DNA of 44,783 nt from Conexibacter sp. (GTDB lineage: Bacteria; Actinomycetota; Thermoleophilia; Solirubrobacterales; Solirubrobacteraceae): the NCBI GenBank assembly GCA_025964325.1, contig JAOPZA010000083.1:1-44783 (forward strand), written 5' to 3'. Numbering within the stretch: position 1 is the first letter of the stretch; each line of letters starts with the position of its first letter. Made by a program: the position numbers and the translations under genes. The notes under the pieces were generated by a model. The model was not told where the DNA came from. It saw only the letters and a program-made list of their open reading frames with translations, and made no database searches. Positions 10,991 through 28,185 of this stretch are shown piece after piece.

Positions 10991-10998
10991 GCTGTCGC

Positions 10999-11027
10999 AC
11001 AGTACAGTTCTACTGCTTTGATTTCAA
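10999..11027 (-). promoter_or_regulatory. Promoter and dyad operator of the thiolase operon
   Basis: On the minus strand TTGAAA (11027-11022), a 17-bp spacer and TACTGT (11004-10999) form a good sigma-70-like promoter. A perfect dyad CAGTA-N6-TACTG (11000-11015) overlaps the -10 and the adjoining spacer, so a bound protein would block RNA polymerase. The same architecture recurs upstream of the XRE-cupin regulator (27326-27354) and, in a variant, upstream of the ABC operon (25286-25322). Confidence 0.7.
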
Positions 11028-11077
11028 TGTGCTTGGACATCTGCAGCGAGGAACGCCGAGTCCTCGATCACGCCGAT

Positions 11078-11100
11078 CCGCCGGCGCCGTGCGCCGGCGG
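11078..11100 (-). terminator. GC-rich hairpin after the ligase gene
   Basis: CCGCCGGCGC, loop CGT and GCGCCGGCGG form a perfect 10-bp stem 10 nt past the stop of the acetoacetyl-CoA-synthetase-like gene. There is no T-run, as is common in high-GC actinobacteria. It probably marks the end of the long upstream operon. Confidence 0.55.
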
Positions 11101-11109
11101 GCCGCAGGC

Positions 11110-13023
11110 TCATGCCGCGTGCTCCCGCGCCCAGGCGACGAATGCGTCGAGCGCGTCCGGGTTCGCGAGCGCGTCGCGGCTCGCGACCTGCTCCGGCGCG
11201 GCGCCCATCAGGATCCGCTTGACCGGGACCTCGAGCAGCTTGCCCGAGAGCGTGCGCGGCACCTCCGCGACCTGGTGCACCTCGTTCGGGACGTGGCGCG
11301 GCGAGCAGTCGGTGCGGATCCGCATGCGCAGTCGCGCGGCGAGCGCGTCGTCGAGCACGGCGCCGTCGCGGAGCACGACGAACAGCGGCATCCAGCCCTC
11401 GGTGCCGGCGCGCGGCACGTCGACGACGAGTGCGTCGAGCACGTCGTCCTCGACCGCGACCGCGCGGTAGATCTCGGCCGTTCCGATGCGCACGCCGCCG
11501 CGGTTGATCGTCGCGTCGCTGCGGCCCGAGATGATCGCGCTGCCGCGCTCGGTGATCTCGATCCAGTCGCCGTGGCGCCACACCCGCGGATAGGTCGAGA
11601 AGTACGCCTCGCGCAGCCGCACGTCGCCGGGGTCGTTCCACAGCCGCACGGGCATCGACGGCATCGGCTCCGTGATCACGAGCTCGCCGACCGCGCCGAC
11701 GAGCGCGCGCCCCTGCTCGTCCCACGCCTCGACCTTCGCCCCCAGCGCGCGGGCCTGCAGCTCGCCGGCGTAGACGGGGAGCGTCGGCACGCCGCCGACG
11801 AACGCCGTGCAGAGATCGGTTCCGCCGCTGGTCGAGAAGAGCCACGTGTCGGCGCCGAGCTGCTCGTAGACCCACGCGAAGCCTTCGGGCGAGAGCGGCG
11901 AGCCGGTCGAGCCGACCGCGCGCAGGGCCGACAGGTCGCGACCGCGCGCCGGCACCAGGTCGGCGTTCATCGCGGCGGCGATGAACGCCGCGCTCGTGCC
12001 GAACGTGGAGACGCGCGCCTGCGCCGCGAGGTCCCACAGCGCCTCGCCGGCCGGCGTGCCGTCGTAGAGCACGACCGAGGCGTCGCTCAAGAGGACGCCC
12101 ACGAGGAAGTTCCACATCATCCAGCCGGTCGTGGTGAACCAGAAGATCCGATCGCCCTCCTGCGCGTCGAGCTGGAGATGCGCGATCTTCAACTGCTCCA
12201 GCAGGATCCCGCCGTGCCCGTGGACGATCGCCTTCGGCACGCCCGTCGTCCCCGAGCTGTAGAGGATCCACAGCGGGTGATCGAACGGCACCCGCGCGAA
12301 CGTCAGCGGCGCGCGGGCGGGCCCGAGGAAGCCATCCTCCCAGCCGCTGCCGTCGAGCTGGCCGAAGCGCACGAGCCGCGCGCCGGTGGCGGCGGCGATC
12401 CGCTCGCCGACCGCGCGGCGGTCGAAGTCGCGCCCGCCGTAGCGATAGCCGTCGACGGCCAGCAGCACCGTCGGCTCGATCTGGGCGAAACGATCGACGA
12501 CGGCCTCGGCCCCGAACTCGGGCGCCGCGACCGACCAGATCGCGCCGATGCTCGCGCACGCGAGCAGTGCGGCGACCGTGTCGGGCACGTTCGGCAGGTA
12601 GGCGGCGACGCGATCGCCCGGACCGACGCCGAGCGCGCGCAAGCCGGCCGCGATCCGCGCCGTCCGCTCGCGCAACTCGCCCCAGGTCCAGGCGGCGAGC
12701 TGCTGCGACTCCGACGCGTGCCGGATCGCGATCCGCTCGTCCGGCTTGTCGCGGAAGAGGTGCTCGGCGTAGGACACGCGCGCGCCCGGGAACCACTCGG
12801 TCCCGGGCATCTCCCGCGCCCCGAGCACGCGCTCGTAGCCCCCCTCGACGGCGAAGTGCTCCCAGACGAGCGCCCAGAAGCGCCCGACGTCCTCGACCGA
12901 CCAGCGCCACAGCTCGCGGTAGTCCTCCGGCAGCCCGTGCTCGCGCGCGAAGCGCGTCATCGTCGCCCGCTCGATGCGCTCGGGCGACGGCTGCCACAGC
13001 GGCACCGGCTCGCGGTCGCTCAC
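11110..13023 (-). CDS. aacS: Acetoacetyl-CoA synthetase-like ligase (AacS family)
   Basis: 637 residues, the usual length for acetoacetate-CoA ligases and longer than typical acyl-CoA ligases. It should form a beta-ketoacyl-CoA from a beta-keto acid with ATP. Motifs: an ACS-type N-terminal cap, YSSGTTGVPKAIVHGHGG with the His-Gly-His typical of AacS, STSGGTDLC, and the C-terminal LSGKLLEVPVK catalytic Lys. GTG at 13023 overlaps the HyuB stop as GTGA. Standing directly after a ketone-carboxylase-like pair, it would activate the beta-keto acid those enzymes make, as in acetone (acetoacetate) or acetophenone (benzoylacetate) degradation. The true substrate may be larger than acetoacetate. Confidence 0.85.
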   Translation of the reverse strand: MSDREPVPLWQPSPERIERATMTRFAREHGLPEDYRELWRWSVEDVGRFWALVWEHFAVEGGYERVLGAREMPGTEWFPGARVSYAEHLFRDKPDERIAIRHASESQQLAAWTWGELRERTARIAAGLRALGVGPGDRVAAYLPNVPDTVAALLACASIGAIWSVAAPEFGAEAVVDRFAQIEPTVLLAVDGYRYGGRDFDRRAVGERIAAATGARLVRFGQLDGSGWEDGFLGPARAPLTFARVPFDHPLWILYSSGTTGVPKAIVHGHGGILLEQLKIAHLQLDAQEGDRIFWFTTTGWMMWNFLVGVLLSDASVVLYDGTPAGEALWDLAAQARVSTFGTSAAFIAAAMNADLVPARGRDLSALRAVGSTGSPLSPEGFAWVYEQLGADTWLFSTSGGTDLCTAFVGGVPTLPVYAGELQARALGAKVEAWDEQGRALVGAVGELVITEPMPSMPVRLWNDPGDVRLREAYFSTYPRVWRHGDWIEITERGSAIISGRSDATINRGGVRIGTAEIYRAVAVEDDVLDALVVDVPRAGTEGWMPLFVVLRDGAVLDDALAARLRMRIRTDCSPRHVPNEVHQVAEVPRTLSGKLLEVPVKRILMGAAPEQVASRDALANPDALDAFVAWAREHAA

Positions 13024-15179
13024 AGCTCGGTCAGCTGGAAGTCGACGACCGGCTCCTCCCCCTTGCGGACGAAGTCGACCCACAGCGCGCGGCCGGTCGT
13101 CGGATCGAGGTACTGACGCAGCTCGAGCTGCTCGTGGAGGCGGATCGCGGCGCCGAGCTGCTCGGGCGCGACGACGCGGTACGGCGTGACCGCGCGCCAG
13201 TCGTCGCCGAGCGGCCCCAGGATCGCGCCGCTGGCCGCGGCCTGGACGAGGATCTCGTCGCCGTCGCGCACGAGGTTCACGACGTCCGCCCAGCGACGCA
13301 CGATCGGCAGCTCGCGCGGCGCGTGGTCGCGGCCGCTGTCGGGCAGCTCGGCGAGCCGCGCGGCGAGCGCCTGCCCGCGCTCTCGCGCGGTCGCCGCCTC
13401 GTCGACCGCGACCCCGTCGACCACGACGCCGTAGAGGGAGCGGGCGCAGTCGCGCGAGACGCTGCCGTCGAGCACGTCACGCAGCACCTCCGCGATGTCG
13501 CGCTCGAGCGGGTCGCCGTAGCCGCCGCCGTTCTGCGTCACGTGGTTCATCACGTCGTGCGGACCGAGCCGGATCGTGCACTTCGCCTCGGCGATCTCGC
13601 GCCGCCCGCCGGCGCCGTCGAGGTCGAGCACGCTCGACCCGGCGGCCATCCGCTCGCGCCAGTCGGACTCGACCGCGGTCTCGTAGAGGCTCGTCGCCCC
13701 GGGGTTGCCGCCGAAGACGCCGATCGTCGTCGGCACCGTGGCGCCCTGCGTGCCGCAGGTCGCGATCAGCTCGTCGGTGTCGTAGACGGCGAGCGCGAAC
13801 TCGATCCCGTTGCCGCCGCGCTGACGACCGGCGCCGCCGGTGTCGGTCGCCTCGCGGCGCCACAGGTAGAAGACGGGCTGGTGAGCCTCGTTCAGCTCGA
13901 CGTCCATGAACTGGCTGACCGGCACGACCATCGAGCCGCCGGTGTCGACGCCGTCACGGAACGAGAAAGCCGACCCGCCCCAGCCCTGCGCGTCCATGAA
14001 CATCGTCGCGAACGGCTCGCCGAACTGGTTCATGCCGCCGAACTGGCTCAGCAGCCACGATCCGTCGGGCGGCCCGCAGACCCAGTCCTGGTGCCCTTCG
14101 GAGAACGCGAGCAGCTTCGCCAGGCACGTCTCGGCGGTCGCGCTCGCGATCCAGGCACCGGCGACCGACCCCGCCGACAGCGGCATCGGCGGCTCCGCGC
14201 TGACGACGGTGTTGGGCGGGAAGTCGATGTCGATCGAGCGCATCAGCCCGGCGTTCCAGGGCAGGTCGGAGCCGAACAGCGCGAGCATGATCGCGCCGAT
14301 CGCGCCGTAGCTGCCGGAGGCCGACCCGTTGCCCATGCCGGCGATCGCGGCGTCGGTGCCCGCGTAGTCGAAGCGGATCCGGTCGCCCGCCTTCGTCATC
14401 GTGCAGAGCACCTTGTAGAGGCGGTTCTCCTGGCCGTCGTGGTCGACGAAGCCGACGTGCTGGAAGCGGCCGTCGGGCAGGCCTTCGATCCACTCGCCCA
14501 TCCGCGCGGCGGTGCGCGCGATCGTCGTCTCCATCGTCTGACGCACGGCCTCGCCGCCGTACTCCTCGGAGGCCTCGCGCAGCCGCGCCTGCGAGACGCG
14601 GTGGGCCGAGAGGAAGGCGGAGAAGTCGTTGCCCAGCATCGCGGGCAGGCGCGAGTTCGCCATGATCGTGTCCCACACGCCGCGGTTCACGCGCCCCTCG
14701 TCGACGATCCGCGACAGCGGGATGATCAGACCCTCCTGGTAGAGGTCGGTCGCCGTCGGGCACCACGAGCCCGGGTTCATGCCGCCGACATCCATCACGT
14801 GCGCCATGCAGCCGGTCCACGCGACGAGCTCGCCGTCGTGGAAGAACGGCGAGACGAACTGCACGTCGGACTGGTGGATGCCGGCGCGGAACGGGTCGCT
14901 GCTGAGGAACACGTCGCCCGGGTTGACGTCGTCGCCGTAGCGCTCGATCACCTGCTTGATCAGCAGCTGCATGACGAACATCGGCAGCGTGTAGAAGACG
15001 CCGCAGACGGCGAGGTCGCCGTTAGGCGCGTAGAGCCCGAAGTTGTAGTCCTGCGCGTGCACGACGGGCGAGCCGGAGGCGTGCACGATCGTCGTCGAGC
15101 CCTCCTCGTTGATCGCCCAGAGCCGGTGCGAGATCACCTCGAAGGTGATCGGGTCGATCGCCGCAGCGAGCTCAGCCAT
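13020..15179 (-). CDS. HyuB/acetone-carboxylase alpha-like subunit with C-terminal gamma-like extension
   Basis: 719 residues. Residues 1 to about 560 are a hydantoinase B/oxoprolinase domain (DPITFEVISHRLWAINEE start, DPFRAGIHQSDV, GGNPGA, VTQNGGGYGDP near the end of the core). The usual HyuB length is about 550-600. The extra C-terminus (about 620-719) contains LELRQYLDPTTGRALWVDF, resembling the small gamma-type subunit of acetone carboxylases; I infer a fusion. Partnered with the HyuA gene, whose 3' end it overlaps by 8 nt, it would carry out ATP-dependent ketone carboxylation. A hydantoinase or oxoprolinase role is the alternative, but the adjacent beta-keto-acid ligase favours carboxylation. 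Confidence 0.85.
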   Translation of the reverse strand: MAELAAAIDPITFEVISHRLWAINEEGSTTIVHASGSPVVHAQDYNFGLYAPNGDLAVCGVFYTLPMFVMQLLIKQVIERYGDDVNPGDVFLSSDPFRAGIHQSDVQFVSPFFHDGELVAWTGCMAHVMDVGGMNPGSWCPTATDLYQEGLIIPLSRIVDEGRVNRGVWDTIMANSRLPAMLGNDFSAFLSAHRVSQARLREASEEYGGEAVRQTMETTIARTAARMGEWIEGLPDGRFQHVGFVDHDGQENRLYKVLCTMTKAGDRIRFDYAGTDAAIAGMGNGSASGSYGAIGAIMLALFGSDLPWNAGLMRSIDIDFPPNTVVSAEPPMPLSAGSVAGAWIASATAETCLAKLLAFSEGHQDWVCGPPDGSWLLSQFGGMNQFGEPFATMFMDAQGWGGSAFSFRDGVDTGGSMVVPVSQFMDVELNEAHQPVFYLWRREATDTGGAGRQRGGNGIEFALAVYDTDELIATCGTQGATVPTTIGVFGGNPGATSLYETAVESDWRERMAAGSSVLDLDGAGGRREIAEAKCTIRLGPHDVMNHVTQNGGGYGDPLERDIAEVLRDVLDGSVSRDCARSLYGVVVDGVAVDEAATARERGQALAARLAELPDSGRDHAPRELPIVRRWADVVNLVRDGDEILVQAAASGAILGPLGDDWRAVTPYRVVAPEQLGAAIRLHEQLELRQYLDPTTGRALWVDFVRKGEEPVVDFQLTEL

Positions 15180-17334
15180 TGAGCGCCTCCTCCATCTGCC
15201 GCACGGTGGCGGGGTTCGTCGTCGGGTCGATCGAGACGTTGCCGTGCGCGTCCACCACGGCGGACTGACCGGCGCCGATCACGATGTTCGTGTCGGCCAG
15301 CTCGAAGATCGCGGGGCCGGTCACCTGCACGCCCGGGCGCAGCGCCTGCTCGTCGTAGACGGCGGCGTCGCTCCAGCCGCCGAAGTAGACGCGGTCGTGG
15401 CGGATCGGGTCGGGCTGGGGCTCGTCGCTCGGCTCGCTCGGGCGCAGGGTCGGTGGCGAGGTCGAGGCGGTCGCGACGACGCGCCAGTTGACGAACTCGA
15501 CGCCGGCCTCGGTGAAGGCCGAGCCCTCGCCGAAGCGCTGCTCGTAGGTCTCGATGAAGCGGGCCACGAGGCGGTCGAGCCCGGCCGGCGTCACCGGATG
15601 CTCCGGCAGCTCGATCGTGAGCTCGTGGATCTGGAAGCGGAAGCGCATGTCGACGAAGTGCTCGACGCGGATCGCGTCGCGCTCGATCCCCTGCGATGCG
15701 AGCCGCGCGACCGACTCGCGCTCGACCTCCGCGAGCACGGCGCCCACGGCGTCGGCATCGACGTGCTCGGAGGCGACCGAGCTCCCGGGCGGCGTCATGA
15801 AGCTGCGCGTCGCCTCGTGCGTCACGACCAGCTCGGAGGCCGCGATCCCGAGTGCGGAGTGGACCGACGCCGTGACGGGCACGACGATCCGCTTCACCCC
15901 GAGCCCGGCGCCGAATGCGTGCGCGTGGACGGGCCCGGCGCCGCCGAAGGCGACGAGGACGAAGTTGCGCGGGTCGTGCCCGCGGTGGATCGTCGCCTGG
16001 CGGATCAGGTCCGCCATGCGCGAGTCGACGATCCGCTTGATGCCCTCCGCCGCCTGCTCGACCGTCAGGCCGAGCGGCTCGGCGACGTGCTCGCGGATCG
16101 CCCGCTCGGCGCCGTCGCGATCGAGCGTCTTGCGGCCGCCGAGGAAGCTGGTCGGATTGATCAAGCCGAGCACGACGTCGGCGTCGGTGACGGTCGGCTC
16201 CACGCCGCCGCCGCCGTAGCAGACCGGTCCGGGGACGGCACCCGCGCTGTCGGGTCCGACCTGCAGCGCGCCGTCGCGCACGCGGGCGATCGAGCCGCCG
16301 CCGGCGCCGATCGTCTCGATGCCGACCGACGGCACCGCAATCGGCTGGTGGTCCATCAGCGTCGTCGGCTGCAGCAGGGGACGTCCGTCGACGACGAGGC
16401 CGACATCGAAGCTCGTGCCGCCCATGTCGGCCGTCACGACGTTGCGCTCGCCCATCGTCTCGGCGACGAGGCGGGAGCCGACGACACCGCCGACCGGCCC
16501 GGAGAGCAGGAACGAGACCGGGCGGACCGCGGCCTGGTCGACCGCGGCGAGGCCGCCGTTGGACTGCATCAGGAGCGGCTGGTGCGACAGCCGCGCCTCG
16601 CGCAGCGTCGCGTCGAGCGAGGTCGTCACGCGACGGACCTCCGGCCCGAGGAACGCGTTGACCGCGGTCGTGACCATGCGAGCGTACTCGCCGATCCGCG
16701 GCAGCACCTCGGACGAGATCGAGACGTAGACCTCCGGCGCCTCCTCGGCGACGAGCTCGGCGACGCGCTGCTCGTGCTGCGGGTGCTCGGTGCACCACAG
16801 CAGGCAGACGGCGATCGCCTCGACGCCCTCGCTCAGCAGCTCGCGGATCGAGGCGCGCGTCGCGTCCTCGTCGAGCGGTCGCACGACGCGGCCGGCGTAG
16901 TCGACGCGCTCGGGCACCTCGCGCACGAGGCGGCGATCGATCACCGACCTGTGCTTGACGAGCCGACGCCAGTCCTTCAGCTCTGCCTCCTCGAGGCCGA
17001 AGCCCTTCATGCCGCGCATGATCGTCGTGCTGTTGCCGAAGCCCTCCGTCAGCAGCACGCCCGTCTTCGCGCCCTTGCGCTGCAGCAGGCCGTTGGTGGC
17101 GACGGTCGTGCCATGCGAGAAGCGGCGGATCGATGCGACGAACGCGTCGCGCTCGATGCCGGCGTCGGCCGCGGCGAGCGCGAACGTCGCGAGCACGCCG
17201 TCGACGAGGTTCTCTGGGGTCGTCGGCGCCTTGTAGCGCCGAACCGCGCCGCTGCGCTGCAGCACGACCGTGTCGGTGAACGTGCCGCCGATGTCCGACG
17301 CGACGTAGAAGTCTCCCTGCATGCTCTCGCTCAT
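15172..17334 (-). CDS. HyuA/acetone-carboxylase beta-like ATPase subunit
   Basis: 720 residues. It shows the actin-like ATPase signature near the N-terminus (VASDIGGTFTD), SHGTTVATNGLLQRKG, the central LSGPVGGVVG and ADMGGTSFD phosphate-binding loops, and FGGAGPVHA. In hydantoinases this subunit uses ATP to activate the substrate carbonyl; in acetone/acetophenone carboxylases it phosphorylates the enol and carboxyphosphate intermediates. I chose ATG 17334 (GAGAG five bases upstream). GTG 17346, which overlaps the dehydrogenase stop as GTGA, or ATG 17322 are alternatives. Its own promoter is predicted at 17401-17429, within the 3' tail of the preceding gene. Confidence 0.88.
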   Translation of the reverse strand: MSESMQGDFYVASDIGGTFTDTVVLQRSGAVRRYKAPTTPENLVDGVLATFALAAADAGIERDAFVASIRRFSHGTTVATNGLLQRKGAKTGVLLTEGFGNSTTIMRGMKGFGLEEAELKDWRRLVKHRSVIDRRLVREVPERVDYAGRVVRPLDEDATRASIRELLSEGVEAIAVCLLWCTEHPQHEQRVAELVAEEAPEVYVSISSEVLPRIGEYARMVTTAVNAFLGPEVRRVTTSLDATLREARLSHQPLLMQSNGGLAAVDQAAVRPVSFLLSGPVGGVVGSRLVAETMGERNVVTADMGGTSFDVGLVVDGRPLLQPTTLMDHQPIAVPSVGIETIGAGGGSIARVRDGALQVGPDSAGAVPGPVCYGGGGVEPTVTDADVVLGLINPTSFLGGRKTLDRDGAERAIREHVAEPLGLTVEQAAEGIKRIVDSRMADLIRQATIHRGHDPRNFVLVAFGGAGPVHAHAFGAGLGVKRIVVPVTASVHSALGIAASELVVTHEATRSFMTPPGSSVASEHVDADAVGAVLAEVERESVARLASQGIERDAIRVEHFVDMRFRFQIHELTIELPEHPVTPAGLDRLVARFIETYEQRFGEGSAFTEAGVEFVNWRVVATASTSPPTLRPSEPSDEPQPDPIRHDRVYFGGWSDAAVYDEQALRPGVQVTGPAIFELADTNIVIGAGQSAVVDAHGNVSIDPTTNPATVRQMEEALNG

Positions 17335-17342
17335 CACCACTC

Positions 17343-18476
17343 TCACATCGTTGGACGACGACGCCGCCGCGGCCCGCTCTCCCCGGTCCCGCGACGGCCG
17401 ACACTACACCTGCACTGGACAAAGAGCAACTGTGTTGGACGCCCCGCGCTTGCGTTGGCGGGGTCGACCACCAACACGACGCGGTCGGCCGGCGCGCTCT
17501 CCTCGAGCATGCGGTGCGCCTGCTCGGCCTGCTCGAGCGGGAACGTCGCGGCGACCTGCGGCCGCACCGTGCCCCGCTCCACGAGCCGGGCCGCGAGCGC
17601 GAGCTCGTCGATCGTCGCGTGCGGGCTGCCGAGCAGCGTCAGCTCCCGCACGATCGCGCGCCCGACGAGCGCGGCGCCGTCGAGCGGGGCATCTGCGACG
17701 TTGCCGACGAGCGCCGCGCGGCCGCCGCGCGCGAGCGCCTGGAGCGTGAGCTCGAGCGTCGGCGGACCCGCGCAGTCGATCGCGAGCGGGACGCCCTCAG
17801 GCGCAAGCCGGCGGATCTCGGCGAGCGGATCCGCAGCAGCGGCGACGACGGAGTCGGCGCCGGCGGCGAGGAGCGCCGCGCGCTTGCCCTCCGCGCGCGT
17901 CACGGCGATCACGCGCAGGCCGGCCGCGTGCGCGAGCGCGACCGCGTGGATCCCGACGCCGCCCCCGGCCCCGACGACGAGCAGCGTCTCGCCGACGCCG
18001 CCGCCCAAGCGGCGCAGCGCGTGGAGCCCGGTGCCGATGCCGCAGGGCAGCAGCGCGCCGTCGACGAATGAGAGTGCGTCCGGCAGCCGGACGACGTCCG
18101 CCGGGAGCGCGGCGACGAACTCGGCGTAGCCGCCCGGCGCGCGCTCGCCGCGAAAGCGCGACCCGCCGCCGGCCGTGACGCGCTGGCCGAGCACGACGCG
18201 GTCCCCGACGCGCAGCGGCTCGCTGCCGCGCCTGGCGCCCGCGTCTGCGCCGACGGCGGCGACCTCGCCCGCGATCTCGTGGCCGAGCACGCGCGGCGTC
18301 GAGCCGCCGAGGCGCCCGCGGCGCGCGAGCAGGTCGTGCCCGCAGACGCCACACGCTCGGACGCGCACGAGCACCTCATCGGGCGCCGGCTCGGGGCGCG
18401 CGAGTCGAACCGGCACGGGCCGCTCCGCGCCGCCGAACGCCTCGAGCTCCACGGCCCGCATCGTCGGTGCGCTCAT
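17343..18476 (-). CDS. Zinc-dependent alcohol dehydrogenase (MDR family)
   Basis: 377 residues. GroES-like domain with catalytic-zinc ligands in CGVCGHD and GHEIAGEVAAVG, then a Rossmann domain with GAGGGVGIHA. The loop that normally holds four structural-zinc cysteines is replaced by an Arg/Gly segment without Cys. It likely oxidises a secondary or primary alcohol to ketone or aldehyde, a sensible step before ketone carboxylation. The conserved fold ends near VVLVVDP. The last 30 or so residues are Arg-rich and overlap the predicted HyuA promoter, so the tail looks like a read-through extension. The ATG overlaps the CoA-transferase stop by 4 nt. Confidence 0.88.
   Translation of the reverse strand: MSAPTMRAVELEAFGGAERPVPVRLARPEPAPDEVLVRVRACGVCGHDLLARRGRLGGSTPRVLGHEIAGEVAAVGADAGARRGSEPLRVGDRVVLGQRVTAGGGSRFRGERAPGGYAEFVAALPADVVRLPDALSFVDGALLPCGIGTGLHALRRLGGGVGETLLVVGAGGGVGIHAVALAHAAGLRVIAVTRAEGKRAALLAAGADSVVAAAADPLAEIRRLAPEGVPLAIDCAGPPTLELTLQALARGGRAALVGNVADAPLDGAALVGRAIVRELTLLGSPHATIDELALAARLVERGTVRPQVAATFPLEQAEQAHRMLEESAPADRVVLVVDPANASAGRPTQLLFVQCRCSVGRRGTGESGPRRRRRPTM
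17401..17429 (-). promoter_or_regulatory. Candidate internal promoter before the HyuA gene
   Basis: Minus strand TTGCTC (17429-17424), a 17-bp spacer and TAGTGT (17406-17401). The -10 context GTGTAGTGT is shared with the binding-protein promoter at 23674-23703. It would allow the carboxylase and ligase genes to be expressed apart from the importer. Confidence 0.45.
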
Positions 18477-19630: not shown

Positions 19631-19637
19631 CGCTGCC

Positions 19638-20540: not shown

Positions 20541-21277
20541 CTCCCGATCTCGCGCACGAGCGCGACCGGGGCGATCGGCGAGGCGTCGGAGCCCTCCAGC
20601 CGCAGCGGCGCGAAGGCGAGCAGGAACCACCGCCCGAGGAGCGTCGCGACGCCCGGCCCGAGGTTCTCGATCACGAGCACCTCGGAGCCGAGCAGGCGCG
20701 TGTGCACGGGGAAGTCGAAACGCTCGGGGCGACGTCCGTGCGGGCAGTCCGGCGTCAGCATGTCGACGCCGAGGACGTTGATCCGTCGCTCGAGCAGGTA
20801 GTCGGCGGCATCCGCCGTCAGGTAGGGATGGTCGTAGTAGGACGGCTCCTCGTAGCGCTCGGCGAAGCCGAAGTAGAGCAGCAACCCGTCGCCCGGCTCG
20901 ATGCCGGGATCGAGGGCGCGCAGCTCGTCGCCGCCGAGCGGCTCGCCGGCGCCGCGGCGCACGTCGAGCGCGGTCGCGCGACAGGCGAAGCGCTCGACGC
21001 CGTACTGGTCGATCGAGTGGCCGCCGGGGAAGAAGTGCCGCGCGGCGTCGACGTGCGTGCCCGCGTGGGCGGGCGTCGTCAGGTGCGTGCCGGAGATGCG
21101 CCCGCCGGGGATGTCGTGCTCGATGTCGAGCTCGGCGACCTGCATGACGGTGCGCTCGGTGCCGCGCCAGCCGGCCATGCCGGCATGGATCGGCTGTGCG
21201 AGGTCGACGACTCGCAGGTCGGTGCGGTCGGCCGGGAGCGGCCAGGTCTCCGCGCTCGGACTCAGGGGTGCTGACAA
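20537..21277 (-). CDS. Cyclase-family metal-dependent hydrolase, copy 2
   Basis: 246 residues, with HAGTHVDAARHF as the metal motif and VIENLGPGVATLLGRWF matching the family C-terminus. It starts at TTG 21277: GGAG lies 6 nt upstream, and the next in-frame start would cut into the conserved N-terminus. It shares only modest similarity with the following copy (end motif SPIAPVALVREIG versus SPLAPVAIL), so the pair may be two subunits or enzymes for successive steps. The gap to the permease is 22 nt, so it belongs to the importer operon. Confidence 0.87.
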   Translation of the reverse strand: MSAPLSPSAETWPLPADRTDLRVVDLAQPIHAGMAGWRGTERTVMQVAELDIEHDIPGGRISGTHLTTPAHAGTHVDAARHFFPGGHSIDQYGVERFACRATALDVRRGAGEPLGGDELRALDPGIEPGDGLLLYFGFAERYEEPSYYDHPYLTADAADYLLERRINVLGVDMLTPDCPHGRRPERFDFPVHTRLLGSEVLVIENLGPGVATLLGRWFLLAFAPLRLEGSDASPIAPVALVREIGR

Positions 21278-21299
21278 AGGTGGCTCCTGTCCAAATCCG

Positions 21300-22430
21300 T
21301 TAGGAGGCCGCCATCGCGGGCGGCGGTGACTCCGGCGCGTCGGCCGGGACGTGCGCCGCCTTGCGACGGCGGCTGCGCTCGGCGAGCACCGGGGTCGCGA
21401 TCGCGATCAGCAGCACGAAGCCGTAGAAGACGGGCTGCACCCACAGTGCGACCTTCAGCAGCACGAGCCCGTTGAACCCGACTGCGACCAGCAGGACGCC
21501 GAGCAGCGTGCCGATCGGGTTGAAGCGCCCGACGCGGACGGCGGAGGCGCCGAGGAAGGCGGAGGCGAACCCCGGCAGCAGGTAGCCGCTGCCGATGTCG
21601 GGTTGCCCGGAGCCGATCTTCGCCGCCTGCACGAGCCCGGCGAGCGCGGCGATCGCGCCGGCCAGCATGAAGGCGAGCACGGTCAGCTTGACGGTCCGCA
21701 CGCCCGCGAGGCGCGCCGCGTCGTAGTTGGCGCCGGTGGCGTACATCTGCCGTCCGGCCGGTGTCTGCTCGAGCAGGTACCAGATCGCGACCACCACGGC
21801 GAGCGCCAGGAAGAGCGGGTAGACGAAGCCGCCGACACTGCCCTGGCCGGCCTTCAGGAACCCGGGGTCGACCTTGAGGAAGAGCACCTCACCGCCCGTG
21901 TACCAGGTGATCAGCCCTATCAGGACGGTCTGCGTCGCAAGCGTCACGACGAACGAGTTGAGGCGCAGCAGCGCGACGATCAGACCGTTCACCAGACCCA
22001 CGACGATCCCGGCGCCCAGGCACAGCAGCGCCGCGAGCGGCCATGGCAGGCCCGTCCGGCCCTGCAGCCCGATCGCCAGCACCCCCGCGATGCTCAACAC
22101 CGCCGTGATCGAGAGGTCGAAGCCGCCCACCACGAGCGCGACCATCGCCGCGATCGCGACGAGGATCAGGACCGCCTGGTTGCTCAGCGTCGTCTCGAGG
22201 TTCGAGAGGGTCGGGAACGTATGGGGTCGCAGCGCCGAGAAGACGATGATCATCACGACCAGCACGACGACCATCCCCCACTGCTGCGCGAAGCGGATCC
22301 AGTCCACCTCGCGCTTCCGCCGCGGCGTGCCGGAGCCGCCGGCGGAGGGGTCCGAGACCCCTCCGCCGCTGCTGTCGGGCCCCGACGGGGCGCCGTTCGA
22401 AGCGCGCTTGGTCGACAGCGTCCGGCTCAT
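21300..22430 (-). CDS. Ribose-type ABC transporter permease
   Basis: 376 residues with about nine or ten hydrophobic helices (from MVVVLVVMIIVFSAL on) and the signature GGFDLSITAVLSIAG of RbsC-like permeases. The first 45 or so residues are Ser/Gly/Pro/Lys-rich and contain a perfect hairpin at DNA level (22341-22367). A GTG at 22307 (VDWIRF) with GGAAG upstream could be the real start. It is one base after the binding-protein stop if ATG 22430 is used. It forms the membrane channel with the ATPase and the lipoprotein next door. Confidence 0.9.
   Translation of the reverse strand: MSRTLSTKRASNGAPSGPDSSGGGVSDPSAGGSGTPRRKREVDWIRFAQQWGMVVVLVVMIIVFSALRPHTFPTLSNLETTLSNQAVLILVAIAAMVALVVGGFDLSITAVLSIAGVLAIGLQGRTGLPWPLAALLCLGAGIVVGLVNGLIVALLRLNSFVVTLATQTVLIGLITWYTGGEVLFLKVDPGFLKAGQGSVGGFVYPLFLALAVVVAIWYLLEQTPAGRQMYATGANYDAARLAGVRTVKLTVLAFMLAGAIAALAGLVQAAKIGSGQPDIGSGYLLPGFASAFLGASAVRVGRFNPIGTLLGVLLVAVGFNGLVLLKVALWVQPVFYGFVLLIAIATPVLAERSRRRKAAHVPADAPESPPPAMAAS
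22341..22367 (-). repeat. Perfect 12-bp stem hairpin between binding protein and permease
   Basis: GGCGGAGGGGTC, loop CGA, GACCCCTCCGCC. It lies 65 nt past the binding-protein stop, within the low-complexity start of the permease frame, with no T-run after it. This placement fits an mRNA-stabilising or attenuating stem that raises binding-protein levels over permease, as in many ABC operons. Confidence 0.6.
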
Positions 22431-22431
22431 C

Positions 22432-23604
22432 TCAGCCTCTCCAGAGCTTCTCGTACGCGGCACGGAAGTCGAAGTCACCCGACCAGTACTGGCCTGGCTT
22501 GACGGTCGAGACGTTCGACTGGTCCATCAGGCGATTCGCCTGCACGATCAGCGGTGCGGCGGCGCTTCCCTGCACGATGCGGTTGGCGTTGTCCATCGCC
22601 TCCCAGCCCGCGAGGAAGTACGACGTCGCCACGACGGCGGCGTAGCTCGGGTCGCTGGCGACCGTCTGGAACGACTGTCTCTCGCCGTTGCCGCCGACGA
22701 CCTTGACTCTGTCGGTCAGGCCGGAGGCTCTGATCGCGTTCGTCGAGTCGACGGCCGTCTCGTCGGCCGGGCTGAAGATCCAGTTGATGCCGGGATCCTG
22801 TTGCAACAGCGACTGGATGCGGCCCGGCAGGGACGTGCCCCACTCGCTGATTCTGACCGCGATCACCGTCGACTTGCAGCTCGGGCAGAGCGCTCTGTAC
22901 TCGTTCAGGAATGCGTCTCTGCGGATGATCGACGTGCCGAACTCGGGGTAGTACATGACGAGCGCGTCGGTCTTCTTGCCGCCCTTCGAGAGCGCGTAGT
23001 CGGCCGAGTCTCTGCCGACCGGCTCCGAGATCTGCGCGTCGCCGTTGGCGAAGTCGACGTTGTCTCTGCCGCTCGTCGCCCCACACGTCGTGCAGACGAC
23101 TCTGATGCCCTGCGCCTGGGCCTGTCTGAGCAGGTCGCCCACGGCGGTCGGCAGGATCGCGCCGAGCGCGATCACGTTCGGCTTCAGCTGGATCGCAGCC
23201 TGCACCGCGCTCGACCAGCCCTGCGCGTTGCCTCTGCCGTCGAGCAGCGTCGTCTTCCAGCCGAGTGCCTTCGCTGCCTCGACGTGCGCCTGGCTGAGCG
23301 CGCGGCAGCCCTCGATCTGGATGCTGCACGAGACCGCGACGAGCGTTCTCCCGGCTGCAGCCGGGGGGCTGCTGGCCGGCAGCTTCGACTTCGCCGCCGT
23401 CCACGCCGCCTTCTCGGCGCTCGCCGCAGAGACCGCTGCGGAGATCGCGTCGCCGCCGCCGGCTGAGCTCGTCGTGCTCGACGCGCTGCCCGACGACGTG
23501 CTGCCCGACGCTCCACTCGATGAGTTGGAGCTCGAACCGCAGCCGGCTGCAAATGCCGCCACGGCAAGCACGAGCGCCAGCGCAAACGTCCTTGACCCTC
23601 TCAT
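22432..23604 (-). CDS. Sugar-type ABC transporter substrate-binding lipoprotein
   Basis: 390 residues. Signal peptide with lipobox FAAGC (Cys22), a Ser/Thr/Gly linker (to about 50), then a periplasmic-binding-protein fold of the ribose/galactose class (Peripla_BP_4). The mature domain has two CxxC-like pairs (CTTC, CPSC), which may form disulfides. A strong AGGAGGAGAGGG site precedes the ATG. Codon use is odd: 14 of 21 Arg codons are AGA, one is AGG, and only six are CGN, whereas the permease next door uses CGN wherever I checked. It has its own predicted promoter (23674-23703). The ligand is probably the substrate of this island rather than a sugar, by inference. Confidence 0.92.
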   Translation of the reverse strand: MRGSRTFALALVLAVAAFAAGCGSSSNSSSGASGSTSSGSASSTTSSAGGGDAISAAVSAASAEKAAWTAAKSKLPASSPPAAAGRTLVAVSCSIQIEGCRALSQAHVEAAKALGWKTTLLDGRGNAQGWSSAVQAAIQLKPNVIALGAILPTAVGDLLRQAQAQGIRVVCTTCGATSGRDNVDFANGDAQISEPVGRDSADYALSKGGKKTDALVMYYPEFGTSIIRRDAFLNEYRALCPSCKSTVIAVRISEWGTSLPGRIQSLLQQDPGINWIFSPADETAVDSTNAIRASGLTDRVKVVGGNGERQSFQTVASDPSYAAVVATSYFLAGWEAMDNANRIVQGSAAAPLIVQANRLMDQSNVSTVKPGQYWSGDFDFRAAYEKLWRG

Positions 23605-23673
23605 CCCTCTCCTCCTGTGAGACGGTGTGCCCGGACTGCGGGCGTGTGCAGCGAGGTTGCTGCCTGTCCGATC

Positions 23674-23703
23674 ACACTACACACGGTCCGACGGCCGAGT
23701 CAA
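23674..23703 (-). promoter_or_regulatory. Promoter of the binding-protein gene
   Basis: Minus strand TTGACT (23703-23698), 18-bp spacer, TAGTGT (23679-23674). The -35 overlaps the ATPase stop codon. The transcript would start about 60 nt before the binding-protein ATG, giving it expression independent of the ATPase. Confidence 0.6.
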
Positions 23704-25232
23704 GCGCGGGCGGCCGCCAGGCTGAGCCGCCCGATCGCATCGGGCGTCGCCAGGTCGCCTTCGAGCGTGCCCTCGTGGCGACCGGCGACGAAGACCATCA
23801 CGCGGTCGCCGATCACGCTCGCCTCCTCGAGGTCGGAGGTGATCCACAGCACCGCGAGGCCGGCGTCTGCCTCGGCGCGCAGGCGCGCGTAGATCTCCCC
23901 GCGCGTCCGGATGTCGATGCCCTGCGTCGGCTCGTCGACGACGAGCACGCGCGGACTCAGCCGCAGCCACTTCGCGATCAGCGCCTTCTGCTGGTTGCCG
24001 CCGCTGAGCGTCCGGAAGATGCGGTCCGGGTCGGGCGGCTCGACGTTCAGCTCGACGATCAGGCGCGCGGCCTCGCGACGTGCGGTGCGCTCGCTCAGCC
24101 GGCCCGCGGTCGCGAGCGAGCTCCAGTCGGTCGCGAGGATGTTCTCCGCCACCGTCAGGTCCTGGAAGGAGGCGAGTCCCTGCCGGTCACTCGGGAGGTA
24201 GGCGATGCCGAGCCGCTTGGCGTTCACGGGCTCGGAGACGTCGAGCTCGACGCCGTCGACCTCGACGTGGCCGCCTTCGACGTGGGTCAGGCCGTAGAGC
24301 GCGCGCCCGATCTGCGAGGCGCCGCACCCGACCGGTCCCGTCAGCACGAGGATCTCCCGCTCGCGCAGCGCCAGCTCGACCGGCTCGAGCCCCGCTGCGC
24401 TGAAGCGCGACAGGCGCAGCAACTCGCGTCGCTGCCCGGCGGACTCCGCGTCGGAGGCCGGCTCGGCGCGGCGCTGCTCGACGTCGCCGAGCATCAGCTC
24501 GGCGAGCTCGTCGTGCGACAGCTCGACCGTCGCTCTCGTCGCCACGACGCGCCCGTCGCGCAGGACGGTCACGCGATCGGTCAGCGCCAGCAGCTCCGGC
24601 AGCCGGTGGGAGATGTAGACGAGCGCGGTGCCGCCTTCGGCGAGTCTGCGCAGCGAGGCGAACAGCCGGTCCACCTCCTCCTGCGGCAGCGACGCGGTCG
24701 GTTCGTCGAGCACGAGCAGCGCCTCGTCCTCGAACTCGCCGAGCGCGCGGGCGATCGTGACGAGCGTGCGCTCCGCGGGCGCGAGCGAGGCGACGGTGGC
24801 GCCGGGGTCGACGTCGAGGCCGACGCGGGCGCACAGCTCGCGTACCCGAGCGAAGTGCCGGCGCCAGCGGATCCGGCCGCTCCCACCGGCGAAGCCGGCC
24901 GCGCCGAAGCCGAGGTTGTCGGCGACCGAGCAGTCGCCGACGAGCGCGAGGTCCTGGTGCACGAAGCCCATCCCGACGCGTCGCACGTCGGCGACCGAGA
25001 AGGGCGCCTCGAGCGCGGTGCCGTTGACGCGCAGCGTCGGCGAGCCGTCGGGCCGGTGGAAGCCCGAGAGCACCTTCACGAGCGTCGACTTGCCCGAGCC
25101 GTTCGGCCCGATCAGCCCGTGGATCTCACCGCGTCCGACATCGAGGTCGACGCCGCGGAGGACGGTCACGCCGGCGAACGACTTCCACAGGTCGCGGACC
25201 TCGAGGGCCGGCGTGTCGTGCGTGCTCGCCAT
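23700..25232 (-). CDS. Ribose-type ABC transporter ATPase (two nucleotide-binding domains)
   Basis: 510 residues, the standard length for RbsA/XylG-type tandem ATPases. Domain 1: Walker A GPNGSGKST (near 40) and Walker B LLVLDEPTA. Its signature motif is degenerate: LAPAERTLVTIARAL where LSxGxxQ is usual. Domain 2 has GPVGCGASQIG instead of a full Walker A (no GKS/T), an intact LSGGNQQK signature and LVVDEPTQGID. One degenerate site is normal in this family. ATG 25232 has GGAGGAGAG upstream. It is the first gene of the long operon driven by 25286-25322. Confidence 0.93.
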   Translation of the reverse strand: MASTHDTPALEVRDLWKSFAGVTVLRGVDLDVGRGEIHGLIGPNGSGKSTLVKVLSGFHRPDGSPTLRVNGTALEAPFSVADVRRVGMGFVHQDLALVGDCSVADNLGFGAAGFAGGSGRIRWRRHFARVRELCARVGLDVDPGATVASLAPAERTLVTIARALGEFEDEALLVLDEPTASLPQEEVDRLFASLRRLAEGGTALVYISHRLPELLALTDRVTVLRDGRVVATRATVELSHDELAELMLGDVEQRRAEPASDAESAGQRRELLRLSRFSAAGLEPVELALREREILVLTGPVGCGASQIGRALYGLTHVEGGHVEVDGVELDVSEPVNAKRLGIAYLPSDRQGLASFQDLTVAENILATDWSSLATAGRLSERTARREAARLIVELNVEPPDPDRIFRTLSGGNQQKALIAKWLRLSPRVLVVDEPTQGIDIRTRGEIYARLRAEADAGLAVLWITSDLEEASVIGDRVMVFVAGRHEGTLEGDLATPDAIGRLSLAAARA

Positions 25233-25257
25233 CTCTCCTCCGTGTGCCGCAGTCGAG

Positions 25258-25277
25258 CCGATGTCTAGTGTCATCGG
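25258..25277 (-). promoter_or_regulatory. Inverted repeat in the 5' leader of the ABC operon
   Basis: CCGATGTCTAGTGTCATCGG has 6-bp perfect arms (CCGATG/CATCGG) around 8 nt. It lies between the predicted -10 and the ATPase ATG, so it could be a second operator or a small leader hairpin. Nothing identifies its ligand. Confidence 0.4.
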
Positions 25278-25285
25278 TCTTATTT

Positions 25286-25322
25286 CAGTATGACTGTACA
25301 GCGCGTCGCATCGCCGCGTCAA
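25286..25322 (-). promoter_or_regulatory. Promoter and dyad operator of the ABC/ketone operon
   Basis: Minus strand TTGACG (25322-25317), 18-bp spacer and TACAGT (25298-25293). The dyad CAGTA-N6-TACAG (25286-25301) overlaps the -10. On the minus strand it reads CTGTACAGTCATACTG and matches the thiolase-operon operator at CWGTACAGT and TACTG. Confidence 0.6.
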
Positions 25323-25354
25323 CGTCGGAGCTTGCCGACGGCGGCGCGGAGGAG

Positions 25355-25783
25355 TCAGCCGCCGGCGAGCGAGCGGCGGCTGCGAAAGCGCCACACGCCG
25401 CCGCGCTCCACGAGCTCGTCCTCGAAGGTCGCGCTGACGAGCAGCCGCGGCGGCGCGGCCGCGCTCGATGCGATCACGAGGCTGTAGCAGCGCGCCGGCA
25501 CGACCTGCTCGCCGTCGACCGGCACGGGGTCGCCGAGCAGCCGGTTGGCGACCCAGTGCCGCACCGTCAGCCCGTCGGCGCCCCACGTCTCGTGGCAGGC
25601 GTCCACGTACGCACGCAGCGCCGGCCGACCCCGGACGACCTGCCCGGCGGACGAGCGGAACTCGCCGTCGGCGACGAAACAGTCGGACCAGCCGGCCGCG
25701 TCGCCCGTGTCGATCGCGTACGCGTAGCGCGTGTAGAGCGCGTCGATCTGCGCGTCGCGCTGGAGGTCGATCGCTGCCGCCAT
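25355..25783 (-). CDS. NTF2-like/SnoaL-fold protein
   Basis: 142 residues. The pattern Q-x-D-ALYTRYAYAID-x-GD-x-x-GWSDCFVADGEF is that of SnoaL_4-type cone-shaped alpha+beta folds, often small isomerases, hydratases or small subunits of ring-hydroxylating dioxygenases. A His-containing strand (VRHWVANRLL) matches the usual active-site strand. It lies 3 nt after the SDR stop, so the pair is co-transcribed and may act on the same intermediate. No large dioxygenase subunit is in the window, which makes an isomerase/hydratase-like role more likely. Confidence 0.8.
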   Translation of the reverse strand: MAAAIDLQRDAQIDALYTRYAYAIDTGDAAGWSDCFVADGEFRSSAGQVVRGRPALRAYVDACHETWGADGLTVRHWVANRLLGDPVPVDGEQVVPARCYSLVIASSAAAPPRLLVSATFEDELVERGGVWRFRSRRSLAGG

Positions 25784-25786
25784 CGG

Positions 25787-26551
25787 TCAGATGCCACGAC
25801 CGCCGTCGACCTGCAGAGCGCTGCCGGTGATGAACGAGGCGTCGTCGGAGGCGAGGAAGGCCGCGGCCGCGGCGATCTCGTCGGCACGGCCGAGGCGGCC
25901 GATCGGCGTCGCCTTCGCGGTCGTGTGGTCGCCGCTGCCGAACTGCGAGAGCATCGGCGTGTCGGTCGAGACCGGGTTGACCGAGTTGACGCGGATCCCG
26001 AACTCGGCAAGCTCGATCGCGAGCTGTCTCGCGAGCACGACCGCGCCGCCCTTCGCCGCGGTGTAGGCGCACAGCTGCGGGCGCGGGCGGATGCCCGACA
26101 TCGAAGCGGTCACGAGGATCACGCCGGAGGCCTGCCGCTTCATGATCGGCACGACGATCCGCGCCGCGAGGAAGATCGCCGTCAGGTTGACGTCGATCGC
26201 GCGCCGCCAGGTCTCGTCGTCCACGTCCTCGACGAGGGCGGCGACCTGGGGCAGGCCGGCGTTGTTGTAGTAGACGTCGAGCGACCCGAAGCGCTCGAGC
26301 GCGAGGTCGACCGAGCGCTGCACGGCGGCGGCGTCGGTCACGTCGACGGTGACCGCGACGGCGCGCTCCCCCGCGTCCGCGGCCGCGACGGTTGCCTCGG
26401 CGGCGGCGCCATCGATGTCGACGGCGACGACGTTCGCGCCCTCGGCGAGGAAGCGCTCTACGCTCGCGCGTCCGATTCCCGATCCGGCACCGGTGATGAT
26501 CGCGGTCCGGCCCTCGAGCCTGCGCGCGGGCACTGCAGTGTGATTGGCCAT
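25787..26551 (-). CDS. Short-chain dehydrogenase/reductase (classical SDR)
   Basis: 254 residues. Cofactor motif TGAGSGIG (20-27), an Asp at the end of strand 2 (VAVDID) suggesting NAD over NADP, NNAG, and catalytic Ser in the 150 region with Y163-x-x-x-K167. The C-terminal VDGGRGI is standard. It likely interconverts a hydroxy and a keto group, perhaps an early oxidation of the imported substrate. GGAGC precedes the ATG weakly. A pair of ACTACACAA repeats lies about 45-70 nt upstream. Confidence 0.92.
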   Translation of the reverse strand: MANHTAVPARRLEGRTAIITGAGSGIGRASVERFLAEGANVVAVDIDGAAAEATVAAADAGERAVAVTVDVTDAAAVQRSVDLALERFGSLDVYYNNAGLPQVAALVEDVDDETWRRAIDVNLTAIFLAARIVVPIMKRQASGVILVTASMSGIRPRPQLCAYTAAKGGAVVLARQLAIELAEFGIRVNSVNPVSTDTPMLSQFGSGDHTTAKATPIGRLGRADEIAAAAAFLASDDASFITGSALQVDGGRGI

Positions 26552-26595
26552 CGATGCTCCAGTTCGCGTGACGGTCCGCCAACGCTAACAGCTGG

Positions 26596-26622
26596 ACTAC
26601 ACAAGATCCAGTCGCACTACAC
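26596..26622 (-). repeat. ACTACACAA direct repeat upstream of the SDR gene
   Basis: Two copies of ACTACACAA start at 26596 and 26616, exactly 20 bp apart, about two helical turns, in the 93-nt gap before the SDR gene. The first copy is also flanked by CTGGA/TCCAG arms. This is consistent with a dimeric regulator binding one DNA face, or with overlapping promoter elements (GTGTAGT on the minus strand). Confidence 0.4.
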
Positions 26623-26644
26623 AACTGCGACGCGTGTCGCAGCG

Positions 26645-27256
26645 TCAGCCGACGTCGCTTCTCGCCTCCGGCGCCATCACCCAGAGCACCCGCACGGGCC
26701 GCTTGGTCTCGTTCAGCAGTCGATGTGGCTGCTGTGCGTCGAAGGCGATGTAGTCGCCCTGTTCGAGCACCTCGCGGCGGTCGCCGAGCTCGATCGTCAC
26801 GCGACCCTCGATCACGATGCCGTAGTCGCGGCCGGAGTGGGAGCCGGCGCCGGGGCGCGAGGAGCCCCCGGGGATGATCTGCACCTCGGCGACGTGCAGA
26901 TACGGGTCGTCGAGCTCCATCATGTACTCGCGCCGGCACTGCGGATCCTCGATCACGCGCCGCTCGGCGCGGCGCACGACGGGCGAGCGCGGAGCATGGT
27001 GCGCGTCGCCTTCGAGCAGGTCGCTCGGCCGCACCGCGAGCGCCTCGGCGATCGCCGCGAGCGACAGCAGCGAGGGGCTCGCCTCGCCGCGCTCGATCTG
27101 GCTCAGCAGGCTGGGGCTGACGTCGGCCTTCTCCGCGACCGAGCGCAGCGTCTGTCCGCGGCGCACCCGCAGCTCGCGCAGGCGGATCCCGAGCGCCTCC
27201 GTCGGCGAACGAGGCGTGCCGACGGAGGCCGGCTGCGGTGGCGCCTCGTCAGCCAT
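26645..27256 (-). CDS. XRE-family regulator with C-terminal cupin, copy 1
   Basis: 203 residues. An HTH_3 domain (about 25-80, with SVAEKADVSPSLLSQIERGE) and a cupin-2 sensor domain (about 115-195, HSGRDYGIVIEG, GDYIAFDA, PHRLLNET). Such proteins usually repress catabolic operons until the cupin binds a small ligand. I chose ATG 27256. A longer frame to ATG 27340 exists, but that ATG lies upstream of the predicted -10 (27331-27326). The promoter carries the shared dyad, suggesting autoregulation. It closely resembles the next gene. Confidence 0.88.
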   Translation of the reverse strand: MADEAPPQPASVGTPRSPTEALGIRLRELRVRRGQTLRSVAEKADVSPSLLSQIERGEASPSLLSLAAIAEALAVRPSDLLEGDAHHAPRSPVVRRAERRVIEDPQCRREYMMELDDPYLHVAEVQIIPGGSSRPGAGSHSGRDYGIVIEGRVTIELGDRREVLEQGDYIAFDAQQPHRLLNETKRPVRVLWVMAPEARSDVG

Positions 27257-27325
27257 CACGCGTGTGGCGCCGGACGGAGACAGTGGTCGCCGCTGCCGAT
27301 CTCGCTCGGTCCCATGCCGTGCGCA

Positions 27326-27354
27326 AACGTACAGTTCCATCGCTTTCGGTGCAA
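27326..27354 (-). promoter_or_regulatory. Promoter and operator of XRE-cupin gene 1
   Basis: Minus strand TTGCAC (27354-27349), 17-bp spacer, TACGTT (27331-27326). Spacer end and -10 read GAACTGTACG, nearly identical to the thiolase promoter. On the plus strand GTACAGTTC is shared exactly, with a weaker right half-site (CATCG). Confidence 0.6.
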
Positions 27355-27379
27355 CTCAGGCATACAGCGTCCTGGTCGC

Positions 27380-28057
27380 TCAGCTGGCGCTGGGAGCGGC
27401 CCGGCGGCGGCGCCCGGATCTGGCCGCCGCGCGGCGCGACGTGCTCTCCCGAGCGCGATCGTGGGCGATGATCCACATCAGGCGGGCATCGCGATCGGAC
27501 TCGTTCACGAGCCGGTGCGGAACGTCCGCGTCGAACGCGATGTAGTCGCCCTCCTCGAGCGTCTCGCGTCTCGTCGAGAGCTCCACGATGGCGGTTCCCT
27601 CGAGCACGATCCCGTAGTCGCGGCCGGAGTGGGCGGCGAGACTGGGCCGCGACGAGCCACCGGGCGGCAGGTAGAGCTCGGCGACCTCGAGGTACGGGTC
27701 GTCGACGTGCATCAGGTACTCGCGCCGGCAGAGCTTGTCGTCGATCACGCGCCGCTGGTCGCGCCGCACGATCGGTGAGCGCTCCTCGGGCTGCTCCGGA
27801 TCGTCGAGCAGCAGGCCGGGCCGCACGTCGAGCGCGTCGGCGATCGCGACGAGCGAGAGCAGCGAGGGGCTCGCCTCGCCCCGCTCGATCTGGCTCAGCA
27901 GGCTGGGACTGACCTGGGCGATGCCGGCGACCGCGCGCAGGCTGAGGCCGCGTTCGGCGCGCAGGACGCGCAGGCGCCGGCTCAGCGTCTCGGTGACGGT
28001 CTCGGTCGCCCGCTCTCGCTTTTCGGTGGGTGCTCTGTCCTCGGCCTTCGTTCCCAT
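27380..28057 (-). CDS. XRE-family regulator with C-terminal cupin, copy 2
   Basis: 225 residues. Same architecture as the neighbouring regulator: HTH (about 27-80, with AQVSPSLLSQIERGE) and cupin (LPPGGSSRP, HSGRDYGIVLEG, GDYIAFDADVPHRL). An Arg/Ser/Ala-rich tail of about 20 residues is added at the C-terminus. ATG 28057 follows a G-rich site (GGGGGACGGG). It is divergent from the plus-strand aldehyde dehydrogenase with about 200 bp between starts, where a partial copy of the shared dyad lies (28170-28185). It and copy 1 look like a tandem duplication that diverged, perhaps to sense different intermediates. Confidence 0.88.
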   Translation of the reverse strand: MGTKAEDRAPTEKRERATETVTETLSRRLRVLRAERGLSLRAVAGIAQVSPSLLSQIERGEASPSLLSLVAIADALDVRPGLLLDDPEQPEERSPIVRRDQRRVIDDKLCRREYLMHVDDPYLEVAELYLPPGGSSRPSLAAHSGRDYGIVLEGTAIVELSTRRETLEEGDYIAFDADVPHRLVNESDRDARLMWIIAHDRARESTSRRAAARSGRRRRAAPSAS

Positions 28058-28168
28058 GTTCCCGTCCCCCCACCGACCCTGTCTCGACCTCACCACCGTA
28101 GCGCTCGGCAGCCTATCGCGCGCAATCGGGTTCGCCAGTTCTGGGCGAGCACTCGCACAGCACACAGA

Positions 28169-28185
28169 ACAGTATGGGTGGACAG
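28169..28185. promoter_or_regulatory. Weaker copy of the shared operator in the divergent region
   Basis: CAGTA-N6-GACAG at 28170-28185; on the minus strand the right part reads CATACTGTT, a plausible -10 (TACTGT) for regulator 2. One half-site matches the consensus fully, the other partly. No good -35 is seen. Confidence 0.35.

Follow-up and report, generated by a model that had tools for sequence, protein, structure and literature searches.

Predicted operator dyads at the promoters of a catabolic gene island encoding two XRE-cupin regulators in Conexibacter sp.

Results

The catabolic island and its paired regulators

The window, which is the whole stretch of DNA that was analysed (44,783 nucleotides), comprises contig G000:C62 in full, part of a draft genome of 4.34 Mb. 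The thiolase operon (5134-10990, minus), annotated with Pfam and NCBIfam, comprises two thiolase-like genes, a small ORF (8227-8700), an acyl-CoA ligase gene and an aldehyde dehydrogenase gene. It is followed by a longer set of genes (11110-25232, minus) for an ABC transporter (ATPase, substrate-binding protein and permease) and for several enzymes, namely two Cyclase-family proteins, a CoA-transferase III, an alcohol dehydrogenase, a hydantoinase A/B-like pair and an acetoacetate-CoA ligase. The ligase assignment scored 883.6 bits against a cut-off of 639, and the hydantoinase-like pair was nearest to caprolactamase and acetophenone carboxylase, with scores below the cut-offs of both. Genes for an SDR dehydrogenase and a SnoaL-like protein (25355-26551, minus) complete this series, and a further aldehyde dehydrogenase gene (28259-29650, plus) is transcribed divergently from the second of two regulator genes. 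We infer that the island plausibly breaks down an alcohol or a ketone.

Both regulators combine an XRE helix-turn-helix with a Cupin_2 domain, and HTH_3 and Cupin_2 were above the Pfam cut-offs in each. Regulator 1 (26645-27259, minus) probably starts at an in-frame ATG at about 27258, and gave E-values of 1.8e-12 for HTH_3 and 2.9e-16 for Cupin_2 over 26645-27316. A leaderless transcript was also considered for this gene, and dropped when the ATG at 27315 proved to be out of frame. Regulator 2 (27380-28057, minus) is a paralogue with 60% identity to regulator 1. The recognition segment, VSPSLLSQIERGEASPSLLSL, is identical in the two proteins, so that both should read the same site. Two paralogous regulators standing in tandem with the same recognition helix are the least ordinary aspect of the island.

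The best full-length NCBIfam match of regulator 2 was PuuR (E 3.3e-14), the helix-turn-helix plus cupin repressor of putrescine use in Escherichia coli. Membership of that family was rejected, since the cut-off lies at 211 bits and the regulators reached 45.5 and 52.9, and their neighbours are not putrescine genes. The BoxR/BzdR-like regulators of anaerobic benzoate metabolism (NF006015) were set aside as well, the scores of 48.1 and 49.5 bits falling short of the cut-off of 204; here the likeness was confined to the helix-turn-helix region, and the island regulators carry a cupin domain instead.

Three strong dyads and their rarity in the genome

The original prediction placed one dyad operator at several promoters of the island, and three of its sites were present as described, with 0, 1 and 2 mismatches to CAGTA-N6-TACTG. 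The P1 dyad (11000-11015, CAGTACAGTTCTACTG) is intergenic, matches CAGTA-N6-TACTG without mismatch, and lies 10 bp ahead of the start codon of the thiolase-like operon (ATG, 10990), where it overlaps a -10 element, TACTGT (10999-11004, minus), with the -35 element TTGAAA at 11022-11027. A leaderless transcript is possible at this promoter, the ATG being 8 bp past the -10. The P3 dyad (25286-25301, CAGTATGACTGTACAG), also intergenic and with one mismatch, precedes the sugar-type ABC operon, whose ATPase gene spans 23700-25232, and overlaps a possible -10, TACAGT (25293-25298, minus), with TTGACG as -35 at 25317-25322. The P6 dyad (28170-28185, CAGTATGGGTGGACAG), the weaker of the three as had been noted, has two mismatches and occupies the intergenic region between regulator 2 (minus) and aldehyde dehydrogenase (plus).

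The expectation that a genome-wide search would return few extra matches was borne out. The 11000 dyad is the only exact match to CAGTA-N6-TACTG in the genome, and exact matches to CAGTA-N6-TACWG occur at two places, both on the window contig. When the pattern was written as CWGTAY-N4-RTACWG, the 25286 dyad was the only place without mismatch, the P6 dyad had one mismatch, and the four places in the genome with at most one mismatch (25286, 11000, 28170 and 42329) were all on this contig, although the weight of this count rests on the absence of further sites, since the pattern was derived from the first three dyads. At three mismatches or fewer the motif was not enriched in the window (38 matches against 33.9 expected from shuffles), so that only the strong sites are meaningful. 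The site at 42329 (score 11.2 with the matrix described below) falls at the coding end of a transporter-like gene, within its last codons, and is probably a chance match, and a site at 8039 (score 10.6), inside the acyl-CoA ligase gene, was likewise treated as chance.

A symmetric matrix of 16 columns was built solely from the three dyads at 11000, 25286 and 28170, and scored against a background of 400 kb from the same genome and relatives. When each dyad was left out in turn, it ranked 2nd, 2nd and 4th among the 44,768 positions of the window, with 0, 0 and 1 equal or better matches per 400 kb of background. Intergenic matches scoring at least 7.9 numbered seven in 1.1 kb of the island and eight in 43 kb of background intergenic DNA, which contained none scoring at least 14, and there were none scoring at least 7.9 in the remaining 4.1 kb of intergenic DNA of the window. 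The seven island matches include the three training dyads and one at 10992 that overlaps a training dyad; those at 23664, 26609 and 27352 are independent. It could be argued that dyads chosen by eye are chance occurrences, given that matches with up to three mismatches are no commoner than in shuffled sequence and that one of the four sites first listed is not a dyad (see below), but the leave-one-out ranks, the near-uniqueness of the strong sites in the genome, and the prediction of sites in other genomes make this extremely improbable.

Additional sites and the regulator 1 promoter

The matrix revealed sites that the original prediction had missed. The best match in the window after the training dyads was a fourth dyad, P2 (17402-17417, CACTACACCTGCACTG), with a score of 14.6, and the 400-kb background contained no match of 14 or more. 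P2 overlaps a possible promoter, TTGCTC-17-TAGTGT (minus), ahead of the hydantoinase-like genes. It is located within the tail of the alcohol dehydrogenase ORF, in a stretch that resembles non-coding DNA (GC3 0.71, against 0.92 for the whole ORF) and that begins after the alignment with the homologue has ended. This ORF extends about 40 codons beyond the homologue alignment (17343-17470) with weak coding bias, and a lost stop codon or an assembly frameshift is a possible cause of its length.

Weaker matches were found at three other places. One of these, P4 (26609-26624, CAGTCGCACTACACAA, score 8.0), is in the SDR promoter and has a tandem partial copy at 26589-26604 (CAGCTGGACTACACAA, score 4.3), 20 bp away and identical at 13 of 16 positions; the pair may possibly represent two operator copies on the same face of the DNA. 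Another (23664-23679, CTGTCCGATCACACTA, score 9.7) lies between the genes for the ABC ATPase and the substrate-binding protein, and the third (27352-27367, CAACTCAGGCATACAG, score 7.9) covers part of the -35 in the promoter of regulator 1. Counting 17402 together with the weaker sites at 23664, 26609 and 27352, nearly every promoter of the island has a copy. A second motif of the type TGTCCA, suspected by eye, was treated as weaker half-sites of the same matrix.

The regulator 1 promoter, P5, had been credited with a dyad variant at 27327-27342 (ACGTACAGTTCCATCG). This is not a dyad: five of its ten arm positions are mismatched, and its score of 4.2 ranked 66th in the window. Of the four island promoters to which sites had been assigned, those of the thiolase operon, the ABC operon and the regulator 2/ALDH region retained theirs, and that of regulator 1 was left with a half-site and the weak dyad at 27352, in contrast to the regulator 2 promoter, which has a strong dyad in common with the divergent ALDH gene. 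The half-site, at the P5 -10, is a promoter element (27329-27346, minus, AAAGCNNTNGAACTGTAC); the -35 of P5 is TTGCAC (27349-27354) and its -10 is TACGTT (27326-27331). The same element is found at P1 (11002-11019), with no mismatch at either place, and a genome scan allowing two mismatches located it nowhere besides P1 and P5. Written as the minus-strand promoter stretch AAAGCnnTnGAACTGTAC, what 11000 and 27327 have in common likewise had no further match in the genome at up to two mismatches. The claim that the two promoters have the same geometry held, with TTGAAA-17-TACTGT at one and TTGCAC-17-TACGTT at the other (both minus), and both spacers ending in GAACTG.

Because the sites overlap -10 boxes, part of their similarity may be promoter consensus, and it was considered whether they are mainly the core-promoter signature of a particular sigma factor (a -10 of the form TAnnnT following CTG, with a 17-bp spacer) rather than an operator. 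The predicted -10 hexamers within the dyads at P1, P2 and P3 would fit this reading, as would the agreement of P1 and P5 in spacer length and in the bases around the -10. However, a signature of this kind is difficult to reconcile with the scarcity of matches in the 43 kb of background intergenic DNA, which came from the same genome and relatives, or with the conservation of the outer half-site and of the symmetry, and we regard it as unlikely, also in view of the enrichment of sites next to XRE-cupin genes in other genomes.

Recurrence of the site beside related regulators

Among the genomes searched, only G053, G134 and G340 were found to have an orthologue of regulator 1 (54-60% identity). 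The three loci each have at least two of the cyclase, CoA-transferase III, SDR, aldehyde dehydrogenase, acyl-CoA ligase, thiolase and alcohol dehydrogenase genes in common with the window, the thiolase operon is conserved in the orthologous loci, and in other genera the regulator occurs together with cyclase, CoA-transferase and SDR genes. At all three there was a matrix match just 3' of the regulator gene and ahead of the next conserved gene (CAGCCTGACTGGACAG, CAATCTCATCAAACAG and CGGTCTGAGTAGACAC). With a threshold rate of 3e-4, three of three orthologues had a site where 0.8 was expected, and 6 of 300 column-permuted matrices performed as well.

A more distant XRE-cupin protein, in genome G070 (39% identical to regulator 1), has CTGTTCAGTGATACTG in its own promoter. 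This site is identical to the 25286 site at 14 of 16 bases and adjoins an ABC permease gene, and its location at about -35, rather than at -10, argues against a core-promoter signature. The G070 protein and its relatives make up a supported clade adjacent to the window group, to which it is joined by a weak branch. Sites at a rate of 1e-4 flanked 7 of the 18 XRE-cupin genes in this clade, against 1.5 expected, and none of 300 column-permuted matrices did as well; since the clade was defined through G070, that genome should be discounted, leaving 6 of 17. The comparison with permuted matrices on the 18 clade genes and the three orthologues is the fair test, because the six larger clade loci (12 matches in 5.1 kb) were mostly picked for a site already seen, and their figure is biased. 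Among individual loci, CTGTACACGCGTACAG occurs just 3' of the G035 regulator, and the G004 XRE-cupin locus has several intergenic sites; about half of the related regulators were without a convincing site. A scan of the genome contigs with regulator 1 returned only remote cupin matches in Proteobacteria (27-39% identity), which were not used.

What is read from the sequences themselves comprises the sites, where they stand in the promoters, how nearly unique they are in the genome, and their recurrence beside related regulators. It was also considered whether the dyads might be operators for some other regulator, encoded elsewhere in the genome, instead of the two XRE-cupin proteins. Look-alike palindromes, CAGTACGnnCGTACTG, were seen at eight places in G211 and four in G056, both of one genus. 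They may be a repeat or be bound by an unrelated factor, so similar sites may be in use there by something other than the XRE-cupin proteins. Nevertheless, in the genome studied here the sites are nearly confined to this contig, XRE-cupin genes of other genera also have such sites beside them, and XRE-cupin factors typically control neighbouring genes (PMC7901475), and we consider a distant regulator to be distinctly improbable.

Discussion

The matrix matches beside XRE-cupin genes of other genomes lend support to the original proposal of one operator for the island with the XRE-cupin proteins as its putative binders, and we consider it quite probable, on sequence evidence, that the dyads serve a local XRE-cupin regulon as its operators. 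In such a regulon, dimers of regulator 1, regulator 2 or both would occupy copies of C(A/T)GTAY-N4-RTAC(A/T)G in the promoters of the catabolic operons and in the regulators' own promoters, where the bound protein would most likely block RNA polymerase at the -10 or -35 and so repress transcription. Repression is favoured by the predicted -10 boxes inside the dyads at 11000, 17402 and 25286, and the G070 site at about -35 would fit the same mode of action. A substrate or intermediate of the pathway, held in the cupin domain, would then release the regulators, and uptake through the ABC transporter and degradation would be switched on. We infer the binding proteins, repression over activation, and the ligand.

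Known XRE-cupin proteins of Pseudomonas bind palindromes as dimers, repress neighbouring metabolic genes, and are released on sensing a metabolite (PMC7901475, PMC10965056). PsdR, PauR, ErfA and relatives in P. aeruginosa resemble the island regulators in having an N-terminal XRE helix-turn-helix and a C-terminal cupin domain, in exerting local control over neighbouring enzyme or transporter genes, as predicted for the island, and in using a palindromic dimer site of about 15-16 bp, as is also predicted here. Consistent with this comparison, palindromic sites were present at the promoters of neighbouring enzyme and transporter genes at 11000, 25286, 28170 and 17402, and the matrix was predictive at related regulators. 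The site sequence differs (the PsdR site is TTAAG-N5-CTTAA; PMC10965056), as does the host lineage, and the island has several operators over about 23 kb and two tandem paralogues, in contrast to the single regulator of the P. aeruginosa systems. No closer case came out of a literature search for an XRE-cupin operator in actinobacteria. The island is very probably controlled by an ordinary local switch, a predicted regulon of a known kind with a new site sequence, and it offers a concrete candidate operator for a little-studied XRE-cupin lineage, together with a predicted regulon for a catabolic cluster that combines alcohol/ketone oxidation, a hydantoinase/carboxylase-like pair, acetoacetate-CoA ligase and thiolase.

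A more tentative idea, which we hold to be doubtful, is that the two regulators, with their diverged cupin domains, compete for or jointly occupy the same operators as homo- or heterodimers, so that the island would read two metabolites through one DNA site. If true, a paralogue pair acting on one operator would lend itself to studying, in a simple setting, how duplicated sensors split one regulon.

Other occurrences of the dyad in the order

When 232 genomes of the order were scanned for the exact dyad, XRE-cupin genes seldom had a site beside them (only in the window and in G035), and most other sites were chance-like. This counts against the proposed regulon; the scan is a weak test. A perfect dyad, CTGTACAGCCGTACAG, directly precedes an SDR gene in a different family of the order (L178, 2194-2209; G099:C111), where a search of 6 kb found no relative of the window regulators. 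The dyad pair in G097 was rejected, as it lies in AT-rich DNA with no long standard-code ORF and no resemblance to the island. Its contig (L177; G097:C142) is an AT-rich sequence of 7.3 kb in a GC-rich bin, has almost no standard-code ORFs of at least 90 aa, and is perhaps a contaminant.
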